Below, piece after piece: positions 13,822-17,528 of a stretch of 22,477 nt of DNA (positions are counted from its first letter, which is position 1; each line of letters opens with the position of its first letter). Source of the stretch: a virus. The notes beneath the pieces were generated by a model that was not told where the DNA came from, searched no databases, and worked only from the letters and a program-made list of their open reading frames with translations. The position numbers were made by a program, and so were the translations under genes. The stretch covers positions 1-22,477 of IMG/VR virus record IMGVR_UViG_3300010399_000080. One strand, written 5' to 3'.

Positions 13822-14376
13822 TCATGCCTTTGTTCTCTCCGTTTCGAGTGCATCGCCCCACGTACCGGGGTGCTGGTCCATGATGAGGCGATACGTCTTC
13901 ACGCGAGCGTAGGTTGAAAGCGTGAAGTGCTCGTTGCGCAGGCCGAACTTCGACAGGCCGAGCTTGGGCCGCACTTTGGCGGTAATGAGTTCGGGCGTGC
14001 AGTCGGAGAGGTCGTGCGTGGTGACGTACTCAGCCACTTTGCCGGAGATGATGGCGTGGAGGGAGTCCTCCGGGTGCTGGAGTGCGTCGTACAGGCGGTC
14101 AAGGTCACGGATACTGTAGCCCACAGCGCCAGCGAGCGTGATGGTGTGGCCATCGCGGGTCGTCAGCGTAGCTGGGCCGAAGCCGGAGTATCGACGGCGA
14201 GTCGTCTGGCGGTAGATGAGGTCGGCGTAGGGGATTTTCCAGTGCATGCCGGGGCCGAGTTTCGTGCGGCCCTTGCCGAGGCGGACACGGATGCCCTGTT
14301 CCCACGGCTGGATGATGGTCCACCAGACGAAGAGGTCGAAGAACTGACGGATGAAGTCGAGAAGAGTCGAGAACAT
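13822..14376 (-). CDS. SPFH/band-7 (stomatin-like) membrane protein
   Basis: Residues 4-23 are a hydrophobic N-terminal membrane anchor. The next stretch, PWEQGIRVRLGKGRTKLGPG followed by MHWKIP, matches the opening of SPFH/band-7 domains (stomatin, prohibitin, HflK/C). Later segments (TRDGHTITLAGAVGYSIRD, then a helix and TAKVRPKLGLSKFGLRNEHF, then YARVKTYRLI) fit the rest of the domain. Such proteins form cage-like oligomers at membranes and modulate proteases or channels. The 184-aa length leaves almost no C-terminal coiled coil. TGATG coupling joins it to the gene upstream. Its function in a phage packaging operon is unclear; membrane remodelling, lysis timing or superinfection exclusion are possibilities. 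Confidence 0.85.
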   Translation of the reverse strand: MFSTLLDFIRQFFDLFVWWTIIQPWEQGIRVRLGKGRTKLGPGMHWKIPYADLIYRQTTRRRYSGFGPATLTTRDGHTITLAGAVGYSIRDLDRLYDALQHPEDSLHAIISGKVAEYVTTHDLSDCTPELITAKVRPKLGLSKFGLRNEHFTLSTYARVKTYRLIMDQHPGTWGDALETERTKA

Positions 14377-15040: not shown

Positions 15041-15731
15041 CGGCGGGCATCTCCAAGCCGGAGGCGGCGTAGAAAGCGGGAACGTAGACGTGTGGACCGC
15101 AGGCGTTGAGGAAGTCGGTGCAGCGTTCGATGGCTGCGGCGAGCGTCAGGGGCTTTCCGGGGCCAAGGTCCTTGGTCCGGGCCATGTCGAGCAGCTTCGC
15201 CCAAAGCTGGGACGCGCTCATGCGCGTGTCTGGATGGAGCGAGGGGTCGAAGGCGAACCGTTTCACCTGCTTGAGCATGCGCTTACGGGTGAGGTCGTCG
15301 TCTTCGTCGGCGAGGTCGTCGAGCATCTGGCTCATTTGACGGAGAGCTTCGCCGTCTACCGTGCCGGTCTTGTGCATCCTCGGCGCAGGCTGACTCGCTT
15401 CGCTCGCAGCCTGCTTGTCGGCAGGCTGTGGGTCATTTGGCCCATCGTCGTCTGTACCCTCGGCGGGTGGGTCACCTGACCCAAGAGCTTTCACCGCGAC
15501 CGCGAGGGCCACAGCGTCCGCCCCGGACTCGGGATTGTTCCGGCCGGGGGGCAAAAGCCCCTCCCTGACCAGCGTCTCTCGGGCGCGGGCGACAGTGCGT
15601 ACTGCGACTCCAGTCTCACGAGCTACGTCCGCGATGCTCGCGTCCGGGTGCCGGAGGTACTCGCGCCTCGCGACCTCCCTCTGCCACTGCTTAGTGGCCC
15701 GGAGGTTCGACTTCGGCTTGTCGGGTGACAT
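14937..15731 (-). CDS. Putative terminase small subunit / HTH DNA-binding protein
   Basis: This 264-residue protein is first in the leftward operon, with AAAGGAG four bases before ATG 15731. Residues 25-60 (REYLRHPDASIADVARETGV, then AVRTVARARETLVREGL) form a clear helix-turn-helix. A long acidic, Ala/Gly/Pro-rich linker follows at about 65-120, then a helical region (about 120-225) that could oligomerise. The tail is Ser/Pro/Ala-rich and of low complexity. HTH plus helical oligomerisation domain suits a small terminase that recognises phage DNA for packaging. A transcription regulator is the alternative. The last 104 bases overlap the zincin-like gene. Confidence 0.65.
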   Translation of the reverse strand: MSPDKPKSNLRATKQWQREVARREYLRHPDASIADVARETGVAVRTVARARETLVREGLLPPGRNNPESGADAVALAVAVKALGSGDPPAEGTDDDGPNDPQPADKQAASEASQPAPRMHKTGTVDGEALRQMSQMLDDLADEDDDLTRKRMLKQVKRFAFDPSLHPDTRMSASQLWAKLLDMARTKDLGPGKPLTLAAAIERCTDFLNACGPHVYVPAFYAASGLEMPADGQTSPSVDASSPPSPPAEPAGPPNNDAGRQEQA

Positions 15732-15774
15732 GAGGCTCCTTTGGGGTCGTCCGGGGGTATTCTACTTCCCCTAA

Positions 15775-15790
15775 CTAAATATACATTTAG
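15775..15790. repeat. AT-rich inverted repeat (CTAAAT/ATTTAG)
   Basis: CTAAAT at 15775-15780 and ATTTAG at 15785-15790 are perfect 6-base arms around a 4-base centre. It sits in a roughly 36-base AT-rich island (15771-15806), unusual in this GC-rich window, just upstream of the leftward operon. It could be an operator or an easily melted element. Confidence 0.5.
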
Positions 15791-15798
15791 TAGAACAT

Positions 15799-15865
15799 AT
15801 AGATACGTCGAGCCTTCGACTCGACTCGGCTCTCGCGGTCGCTCGCTCGTTCGACGTATATCTAT
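15799..15865. repeat. Long inverted repeat around a TCG-rich core
   Basis: The left arm at 15799-15811 (ATAGATACGTCGA) pairs with the right arm at 15851-15865 (TCGACGTATATCTAT) apart from a 2-base bulge. The 39-base centre is TCG/CTCG-rich and itself contains GAGCC/GGCTC arms. It could form a cruciform or a transcript stem-loop. Confidence 0.55.
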
Positions 15866-15982
15866 CCGGCGATTAGTCTTAAGAGGACCCTCGCGGTTGG
15901 CATAGGGTCCAGTTTTCCGGTGTCTCGGGGTCTGGTATTTCCTACGCGCACCGATGGCGGGTCGTAGGGGGCCTCGGTGGCC

Positions 15983-16215
15983 CCGGCACAGACGCGCGGG
16001 CGGGCGCACGCATAATGCGCGCACGCGGGCGCAGGCTTGGACCGCGCACACGCGCCCGTGATTCGCGCAACGCACACACGCGCAATGGGATACGCGCGCG
16101 GTTCACAGCGCACGCGAGGGTCCCAGCCGTGCAAATCGCACTGGAGTGCATTGCAAAACGCAGTTCTCCCACTAGTAGTATACCACACGCGCACGCGTAA
16201 ATCGCGCACGCGCGT
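15983..16215. repeat. CpG-rich alternating purine-pyrimidine tract
   Basis: The tract consists of many short runs such as GCGCACACGCGC and ACGCACACACGCGC, interrupted by a few non-alternating bases. Such runs can adopt left-handed Z-DNA under negative supercoiling. Frames through it give low-complexity Arg/Ala-rich peptides, unlike proteins. Confidence 0.55.
16009..16019. promoter_or_regulatory. Dyad CGCAT-A-ATGCG
   Basis: Five-base arms flank a single central A. The core GCATAATGC is identical to the core of the dyad that overlaps the -10 box at 16504-16516, so both may bind the same regulator. Confidence 0.35.
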
Positions 16216-16255
16216 GTTAAATCTTCGCGCGCGATGTTAAATCTCGCGATAGGGC
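16196..16255. repeat. Three iteron-like direct repeats, 20-bp period
   Basis: Copies begin at 16196 (CGTAAATC), 16216 (GTTAAATC) and 16236 (GTTAAATC), exactly 20 bases apart. Each is followed by a CG-rich 12-base segment (GCGCACGCGCGT, TTCGCGCGCGAT, TCGCGATAGGGC). Near-two-turn phasing fits cooperative binding of an initiator or regulator on one face of the DNA. Confidence 0.55.
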
Positions 16256-16305
16256 AAAATCACCCAAGGGGGATTGCAGAATGCAAGAATCAGGCATGCA
16301 TCTTG

Positions 16306-16347
16306 CACTGGTCAAAATCTGACCAGCACTGGTCAGAAACTGACCAC
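16306..16347. promoter_or_regulatory. Tandem operator-like dyads TGGTCA-N5-TGACCA
   Basis: Two 21-bp units abut, at 16306-16326 and 16327-16347. In each, TGGTCA (16309-16314; 16330-16335) faces TGACCA (16320-16325; 16341-16346) across five bases. The arms are perfect and CAC precedes each. A weaker third half-site, CACTGGCAC, follows. It lies about 135 bases before the rightward -35 box, so it may be a repressor/activator site or part of an origin. Confidence 0.65.
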
Positions 16348-16386
16348 TCACTGGCACGGACCTTGCTCGCGCACGTGCGCATACGT

Positions 16387-16404
16387 GGAGACGCGCGCGT
16401 CTCC
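16387..16404. repeat. 18-bp perfect palindrome
   Basis: GGAGACGCGCGCGTCTCC reads identically on both strands, with no spacer. It lies between the tandem dyads and the rightward promoter and could be a dimeric-protein site. As RNA it would form a hairpin only with a short central loop. Confidence 0.6.
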
Positions 16405-16482
16405 GAGCCTTGCGTCGAACGCACCTGCACACGCTCACGCGTTCCGCAGCGCGCGCAATCGCACGCGCGCACGCGGTTCTAC

Positions 16483-16512
16483 TTGACTCGCACCCTCGGC
16501 ATCGTGCATAAT
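16483..16512 (+). promoter_or_regulatory. Sigma70-like rightward promoter
   Basis: TTGACT at 16483-16488 and CATAAT at 16507-16512 are separated by 18 bases, a close match to the sigma70 consensus in otherwise GC-rich DNA. Transcription would begin near 16518-16520. It would read through the structured segment into the rightward genes, because no terminator is evident before 17334. Confidence 0.6.
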
Positions 16513-16523
16513 GCACCTAGTGC
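16504..16523. promoter_or_regulatory. Operator-like dyads overlapping the -10 box and start site
   Basis: GTGCAT at 16504-16509 faces ATGCAC at 16511-16516 around one A, covering the -10 box. GCAC at 16513-16516 also faces GTGC at 16520-16523. A protein bound here would block polymerase, so repression of the rightward operon is plausible. Confidence 0.5.
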
Positions 16524-16670
16524 AATGCGATTCTGCAATGAAAATCGTGAGAGTCGGTTATCGCATCGTTGTGCCGCAACAAGTTAGCCGATTGGCACGG
16601 CCAGTGCACAGTGTATCCGCCGTCGAGGGAACGGCAGGCGGACAGGACAGGACGGACCCGCAAAGCCGAA

Positions 16671-16711
16671 TATGCACAGTGCTAGGCGCACGGTCCCCTT
16701 GGGGATGCATA
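16671..16711 (+). ncRNA. Three-way-junction-like element A
   Basis: The outer stem TATGCA (16671-16676) pairs with TGCATA (16706-16711). Inside are hairpin GTGC/GCAC (16679-16682, 16688-16691) and hairpin TCCC-CTTG-GGGA (16694-16705), which directly abuts the outer stem and could stack on it. The CTTG loop is a known stable tetraloop type. Confidence 0.45.
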
Positions 16712-16757
16712 GGCGGACGGACAGCACAACGGAACGTAGGCGGCCGAGAGACAGGCA

Positions 16758-16793
16758 CGCGAAACGACCACGGTGTACCGTGGAAACGACGCG
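16758..16793 (+). repeat. Symmetric hairpin with mirrored AAACGA internal loop
   Basis: CGCG at 16758-16761 pairs with CGCG at 16790-16793, and CCACGG with CCGTGG closes a TGTA loop. The two strands of the internal loop are both AAACGA (16762-16767 and 16784-16789). The 12-base core ACGGTGTACCGT recurs in inverse orientation at 17040-17051. Confidence 0.45.
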
Positions 16794-17030
16794 ACGAGCC
16801 CCGCACCCCTACGGATGCGTAAGCATACCTTGTGCCGAGACATAGGGAAGCACGGCCACGCAAAAGCGTGGGCGATTGCTCGGAGCGTAACGGCCAGTCC
16901 CTAGCGTGGGACGTGCGTTCAAGTGCCCCAAGCCGTTCAAACTGCGCGGAGTGTGTATCCTCGCCAGTGTATCACGGTACAGTGCAGAACGCACCTATTT
17001 GCGCCAATGTTAGCCCCGAGCCCCAAGCGA

Positions 17031-17061
17031 GCAAAATGCACGGTACACCGTCCCATTTTGC
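17031..17061 (+). repeat. Long hairpin GCAAAATG/CATTTTGC
   Basis: Eight perfect pairs (17031-17038 with 17054-17061) are followed by a small asymmetric bulge and ACGG/CCGT around a TACA loop (17040-17051). No T-run follows, so it is not a typical intrinsic terminator. Confidence 0.5.
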
Positions 17062-17241
17062 CGATTAAACCCCCAGCGTAAGGCGAGCGGAGCGGTTGCG
17101 CCGTATAACCCACCAAAAGGCTCGCACTAGTGCACGTGACCCGCAAGGGACGAGACTGTGCAAAGTGCGTGAGGCGCTTCCAGCGGGAGTACCATCCCCG
17201 CGCAGCGATGACCGGCTGACACCTACGATGCACAGGGGGAA

Positions 17242-17297
17242 CCGCTGTAGCGTGCTGCAACAGCACGCCCGAAGAGCGCGAAAGCGCGAAACAGCGG
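17242..17297 (+). ncRNA. Three-way junction B just upstream of the rightward operon
   Basis: Outer stem CCGCTGT (17242-17248) pairs perfectly with ACAGCGG (17291-17297). It encloses GCGTGCTG-CAA-CAGCACGC (17250-17268, eight pairs) and GCGC-GAAA-GCGC (17276-17287, a GNRA tetraloop). This compact 56-base fold ends 36 bases before the first rightward start codon. Confidence 0.55.
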
Positions 17298-17303
17298 CAG
17301 TAC

Positions 17304-17336
17304 CATGCCCGAACGGCGAAAGGACGGTACGGCATG
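17304..17336 (+). promoter_or_regulatory. Stem that could sequester the first start codon
   Basis: CATGCC (17304-17309) is complementary to GGCATG (17331-17336), which includes the ATG at 17334. The AAAGGA ribosome binding site lies in the loop. An alternative pairing is GTACC (17300-17304) with GGTAC (17326-17330), so two exclusive states are possible. Confidence 0.4.
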
Positions 17337-17528
17337 AAATCCGTCAACTGCGAGCCCCATTGGCCCAATCTGCAAGCCTTTTTTGAGCAGGCAGCACGCG
17401 ACTCGCGAGGGGCCAAGCGTGCCATGTTCCAGAAGAAGGCGGACGAAATCAAAGCGTATCTCTCCGCCCACCCCGCGTGCCCGACGTGTGGCCGCGTGCA
17501 GCGTACCGGCTGCTGCGAAAGCGAGTGA
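17334..17528 (+). CDS. Small zinc-finger-like protein, 64 aa
   Basis: This is the first gene of the rightward operon. ATG 17334 follows AAAGGA. The protein begins with a helical region (NLQAFFEQAARDSRGAKRAMFQKKADEIKAYL) and ends with CPTCGRVQRTGCC, a CxxC...CC pattern that may bind one zinc ion. It lies four bases before the next gene. Small proteins with a single Cys-rich end are common in phage early regions; the function is unknown. Confidence 0.65.
   Translation: MKSVNCEPHWPNLQAFFEQAARDSRGAKRAMFQKKADEIKAYLSAHPACPTCGRVQRTGCCESE

Follow-up and report, generated by a model that had tools for sequence, protein, structure and literature searches.

A type III hammerhead ribozyme between a conserved promoter motif and a phage operon

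The intergenic segment and its promoter region

The window, by which we mean the whole stretch of DNA analyzed here, is a virus record of 22,477 bases. It carries SU10-type head and portal genes and the terminase gene on the minus strand and a rightward operon on the plus strand, and the divergent space between the operon and the minus-strand genes is occupied by a segment at 16513-17333 (Table 1). The segment had been called gene-free in a first-pass annotation, and codon-position analysis bore this out: clear genes of this phage have G+C contents of 0.74-0.81 at third and 0.41-0.52 at second codon positions, whereas the ORFs of the segment are flat. A coding reading was rejected because this signal is absent. 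Homologues of the protein encoded by the first operon gene sit downstream of the leader in two related contigs, L017 and L057. No tRNA was found in the window, and among the relatives tRNAs were seen only in L017. A gene for a Band 7/SPFH-domain protein (13822-14376, minus strand) lies between the terminase gene and the leader.

Table 1. Features at the intergenic locus of the window
Feature	Position	Strand	Remarks
Sigma-70-like promoter, TTGACT-N18-CATAAT	16483-16512	+	10/12 consensus positions; role uncertain
Upstream element, TTGTGCCGCAACAAGTTAGC	16569-16588	+	Partly palindromic; contains CAANNNNTTR, as IHF sites do
Sigma-54-type (-24/-12) promoter, TGGCACGGCCAGTGCAC	16593-16609	+	TGGCA-N7-TGCAC; predicted start near G16619
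Hairpin GCCGT-CGAGGGA-ACGGC	16619-16635	+	Perfect 5-bp stem
Leader body	16619-17249	+	About 630 nt, release by cleavage predicted; no coding signal; bracketed by promoter and ribozyme
Conserved island	16891-16997	+	39/41 and 19/19 identical to L016, the nearest relative of the window
Island hairpin GTCCC/GGGAC	16897-16912	+	
Island 8-pair helix, GTGCGTTC/GAACGCAC	16913-16920 with 16987-16994	+	Encloses a hairpin that differs in sequence between phages
Type III hammerhead ribozyme	17242-17297	+	Core CCGAAGA (U4C); 36 nt before the first start codon
Hammerhead stem III	17242-17248/17291-17297	+	Open end of the ribozyme
Hammerhead stem I	17250-17268	+	
First operon gene	17334-17528	+	64 aa; EPHWPxLxxFF motif; third-position G+C 0.74

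Relatives were gathered by several routes. Terminase searches yielded related contigs, and BLAST of the segment against these gave L016 and L019, matching at the equivalent intergenic position. Inspection of these regions revealed the shared promoter motif TGGCA-N7-TGCAC. When viral contigs were scanned for this motif together with its upstream element, L056, L057, L059, L064 and others were added. Searches with a small conserved downstream protein (query A2) brought in L185, L186 and the distant L190, which lacks the ribozyme; a second small-protein query (A7) returned nothing new. Among GenBank phages, no relative of the window was found by DNA or by terminase, and a terminase-alignment search of cellular genomes found none either.

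A promoter had previously been placed just upstream of the segment. The sigma-70-like site exists, at an expectation of 0.5 such sites by chance in this 2-kb region, but it was not seen conserved in L016; the conserved motif is sigma-54-like and lies inside the segment. In a 12-locus alignment of the same intergenic space, TGGCA and TGCAC are invariant, with the qualification that the alignment is partly selected: L056, L057, L059 and L064 were retrieved with the promoter pattern and L026 and L033 with a relaxed version, and the window, L016, L019, L042, L185 and L186 came by other routes. Sigma-54 promoters have the same letters and the same 12-nt GG-GC spacing as this motif, and they need RpoN and an enhancer-binding protein. 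Positions 16593-16607 of the window, with TGGCAC and TGC at that spacing, depart from the sigma-54 consensus TGGCACN5TTGC by one mismatch (GTGC for TTGC) and in lying in a phage; L057, L064, L185 and L186 have the perfect TTGC. Sites with at most one mismatch number six in the window, against 2.1 expected. Judged by the motif, the site may be used by sigma-54, and the leader RNA probably starts from it.

An element similar to that upstream of the window promoter stands beside the promoter in L016, L019, L033, L042, L056, L057, L059 and L064, and in inverted orientation in L185 and L186; from its motif it may be an IHF site. The predicted start, G16619, lies 12 nt past the GC of the promoter and is the first base of a perfect hairpin, which would thus form the 5′ end of the RNA.

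A promoter-pattern scan of cellular genomes picked up matches in scattered genomes (L194-L231), in which motif and upstream element again occur together. No hammerhead was found near these matches, and we therefore counted them as promoter matches only, not as host or relatives. The arrangement CAACNACTTA-N5-7-TGGCA-N7-TGCAC is found in many cellular genomes, frequently in the form ATCAACAACTTA (a match to the IHF consensus), and is perhaps a common sigma-54 promoter layout. Elsewhere in the window, at 16305-16366, two tandem near-palindromes, CTGGTCAAAATCTGACCAG and CTGGTCAGAAACTGACCA, lie directly before a perfect sigma-54 site, TGGCACGGACCTTGC (16352-16366); they may serve a second promoter as operators or activator sites.

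A hammerhead ribozyme ahead of the operon

The hammerhead of this family surfaced as a CUGANGA-stem-GAAA pattern when the 3′ ends of the leaders were compared. In the window, stems I, II and III have 8, 4 and 6 pairs beyond the U-A pair, as counted by a three-stem pairing descriptor, and stem II is formed by GCGC-GAAA-GCGC. The NUH cleavage site is GUA at 17247-17249, with the cut predicted after A17249, and U17248 pairs with the last A of GAAA to give the A15.1-U16.1 pair. The hammerhead is also the minimum-energy fold of 17199-17333. Two three-way-junction-like folds had been proposed for the segment from a first reading; one three-way junction, the hammerhead, is certainly real.

We built a covariance model (R1) from 11 phage hammerheads, leaving the window out, and searched with filters off. 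It matched window positions 17245-17294 at 42.4 bits (E=1.5e-10), and the second-best place in the window scored 9.9 bits. R1 also finds a hammerhead at the equivalent site in 11 related loci, among which L057 and L188 are near-identical and L056, L057 and L064/L184 had themselves gone into the model. Because a pairing rule governed the choice of sequences for R1, the pair statistics of its alignment do not count as independent evidence. The descriptor matched none of 200 shuffles of the window. Applied to 677 kb before any loci had been fetched by hammerhead pattern, it matched eight places (the window being counted twice, as L001), all of them at the site and strand of the leader hammerhead; ten dinucleotide-shuffled versions of the 677 kb gave no match.

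Phage hammerheads have been known since 2011. Type III examples occur in phages PaP3 and Bcep176 and in the haloviruses HF1/HF2, where they lie 13 nt before a helicase gene (PMC3088659); the window ribozyme likewise stands shortly before a start codon. It resembles the type III family (RF00008) in its three stems, GUA site, GAAA and loop-closed stems I and II, and differs from it in ending a long leader with its own conserved promoter, in falling below Rfam detection (RF00008 does not match the window at E values up to 10) and in its core. Of the consensus core, CUGANGA plus GAAA, the second part is present and the first is replaced by CCGAAGA, so that the window does not have a consensus core. 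The U4C change is a published natural variant, and the window is accordingly filed as a core variant. Perreault and co-workers described natural variants of the core that are less active, among them one with an insertion after A6; for U4C they described a considerably lower activity in vitro that still permitted viroid infectivity (PMC3088659). On this analogy the window ribozyme is probably active but slow, owing to the rare core change.

Similar departures were seen in other members: L019 has a CCGATGA core (U4C), and its stem II begins with an A-A mismatch at the base; L186 has an extra core nucleotide after A6. Taken together with the window, these changes suggest that cleavage could be slow or regulated in some members. 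Rfam itself detects a type III hammerhead in L064, at 49.1 bits against a gathering threshold of 48.5. By contrast, the hammerheads of L042, L056, L057 and L059, all with consensus cores, were unlisted in an Rfam scan at E up to 5, whereas R1 scores three of the four at 57-66 bits, which makes the RF00008 threshold a weak test. In two leader hammerheads, L033 6506-6676 and L059 9731-9897, stem I is lengthened by an insert exceeding 100 nt.

Structure and conservation of the leader body

The body of the leader evolves fast. Complete bodies in the relatives range twofold in length, from 346 to 714 nt, and those of the window and L016 are mostly unalignable outside one conserved island; a full-leader alignment of these two gave no structure signal (z -0.8). 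The core genes of the two phages are about 75% identical at the DNA level, whereas a 41-nt stretch of the island is 95% identical. When the pattern of the island helix was scanned, hits other than L016 were dropped, since the flanking island sequence was absent from them.

L064, L185 and L186 share a multi-branched junction domain in which 11 of 42 pairs show two-sided changes; shuffles give 4.9 and slid controls 0-2. The test is biased towards the domain, whose structure was derived from the same three sequences. Alignment folding z was -4.7 for the plus strand and -2.3 for the minus strand. A covariance model of the domain (R2) finds only its own three members and does not detect the domain in the window or the other relatives, and no single fold of the body was found across the family. 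For the full leaders of L185 and L186, folding energy favors the plus strand (z -3.3 versus -1.9), but the minus strand, too, has more two-sided changes than expected. The body therefore has structure in some relatives and, probably, in the window as well.

In the window itself, the bulk statistics of the segment are modest. At least ten perfect stems had been claimed for it; counting non-overlapping perfect stems of at least 5 pairs with loops of 3-10, we found seven where 5.4 are expected. Seven or more occur in 57 of 200 shuffles, and the number of stems by itself is thus no better than chance. Its folding energy is somewhat better than that of shuffles, with z -2.06 on the plus and -2.01 on the minus strand, and this near-equality means that energy singles out neither RNA strand. 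The reported plus-strand excess of GNRA loops is real (four loops closed by at least 3 pairs, against 0.6 expected), but the claim that they occur on the plus strand only was inexact, as one GCAA loop lies on the minus strand. Across 13 leader bodies of the family, with stems of at least 4 pairs, there are seven GNRA loops on the plus strand against 1.5 expected and one on the minus strand against 0.5. An 82% direct repeat (17181-17208 and 17292-17319) flanks the ribozyme.

Comparison with GOLLD and ROOL, which had been named as possible counterparts, gave no match to either in the window at the Rfam gathering threshold, and a scan of 15700-17400 at E up to 10 returned only sub-threshold chance hits. 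The segment is therefore neither of these, and assignment to any other Rfam family was rejected on the same ground. Like GOLLD and ROOL (PMC12286853), the window leader is phage-encoded, non-coding and several hundred nucleotides long. Those RNAs often lie near tRNA islands, whereas the window leader is without an Rfam match, a nearby tRNA or a single conserved fold, and a hammerhead would form its 3′ end.

Self-processing of the leader and other readings

We consider it fairly likely that the segment is a self-processing 5′ leader of the rightward operon, extending from the sigma-54-type promoter to the end of the hammerhead. RNA polymerase with sigma-54 would start near 16619 and yield a structured leader, which the hammerhead at 17242-17297 would then cut after A17249. 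Such a cut in the cell would free a leader RNA of about 630 nt, possibly with a use of its own. The remaining operon mRNA would then begin with a 5′-OH within the ribozyme fold, 84 nt upstream of the first start codon. This interpretation is carried by the hammerhead fold, its position across the family, the conserved promoter motif and the missing coding signal; the plus-strand GNRA excess, the island shared with L016 and the covarying domain of L064, L185 and L186 also speak for a leader RNA. Against it stand the U4C core, the lack of a family-wide body fold, the structure-free alignment of the window and L016 bodies, and L039, where a gene follows the promoter motif after about 100 nt and a hammerhead is absent. 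The first-pass annotation had offered a large RNA or a long leader as alternatives. Cleavage by the ribozyme would make a free large RNA out of the leader, so the two are not alternatives here. A long structured leader is supported, and related phages have one at the same place, but the decisive hammerhead was missed. That the freed product acts in trans during infection, as a large phage RNA with its own sigma-54-type promoter and hammerhead-mediated release, is a more doubtful proposition.

The strongest competitor, which we regard as a serious if tentative possibility, holds that only the promoter and the hammerhead matter: the cut would shape the 5′ end, stability or translation of the mRNA, and the body would be a functionless spacer with local hairpins. 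The twofold range of body lengths and the poor alignment with L016 speak for it, and in viral contigs fetched by hammerhead pattern such ribozymes frequently lie 10-40 nt before start codons. A spacer does not readily account for the island kept at 95% identity to L016, nor for the covariation in L064, L185 and L186. It is rather improbable that the body acts in cis before or during cleavage, as an attenuator, an antiterminator or a ribozyme switch. The upstream copy of the direct repeat duplicates the 3′ strand of stem III, and its CAGCGG (17182-17187) could compete for the 5′ strand; the plus-strand leader, however, is without a terminator-like site, and the ribozyme is the minimum-energy fold of its surroundings, albeit in a stretch that excludes the competitor strand. 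Least credible of all is a mere G+C-rich intergenic spacer with chance stems. Energies about equally low on both strands and a stem count at chance level are what it would predict, but the hammerhead score, the conserved promoter and the island shared with L016 oppose it, and for the 3′ end the R1 match already refutes it.

Partial coverage of the literature gave no account of a sigma-54-type promoter, long leader and hammerhead as a unit, a weak sign of novelty. In about a dozen related phage contigs the hammerhead occupies a fixed place between the promoter-leader unit and the operon, and this makes it directly testable whether its purpose is to release a large RNA or to set the 5′ end of the mRNA. 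With weakened cores in several members, selection may be acting on the speed of cleavage. Screens at curated Rfam thresholds miss clear hammerheads of this kind.

Hammerheads were also seen outside the leader site. Second hammerhead-like elements, weak (15-19 bits) and perhaps degenerate, lie further down the operons of L042 (610-646), L059 (10979-11026) and L056 (1878-1918), the last immediately before the next gene. Six viral contigs (L085, L088, L090, L096, L146 and L168) each carry two or three type III hammerheads, mostly a few tens of nucleotides before start codons.
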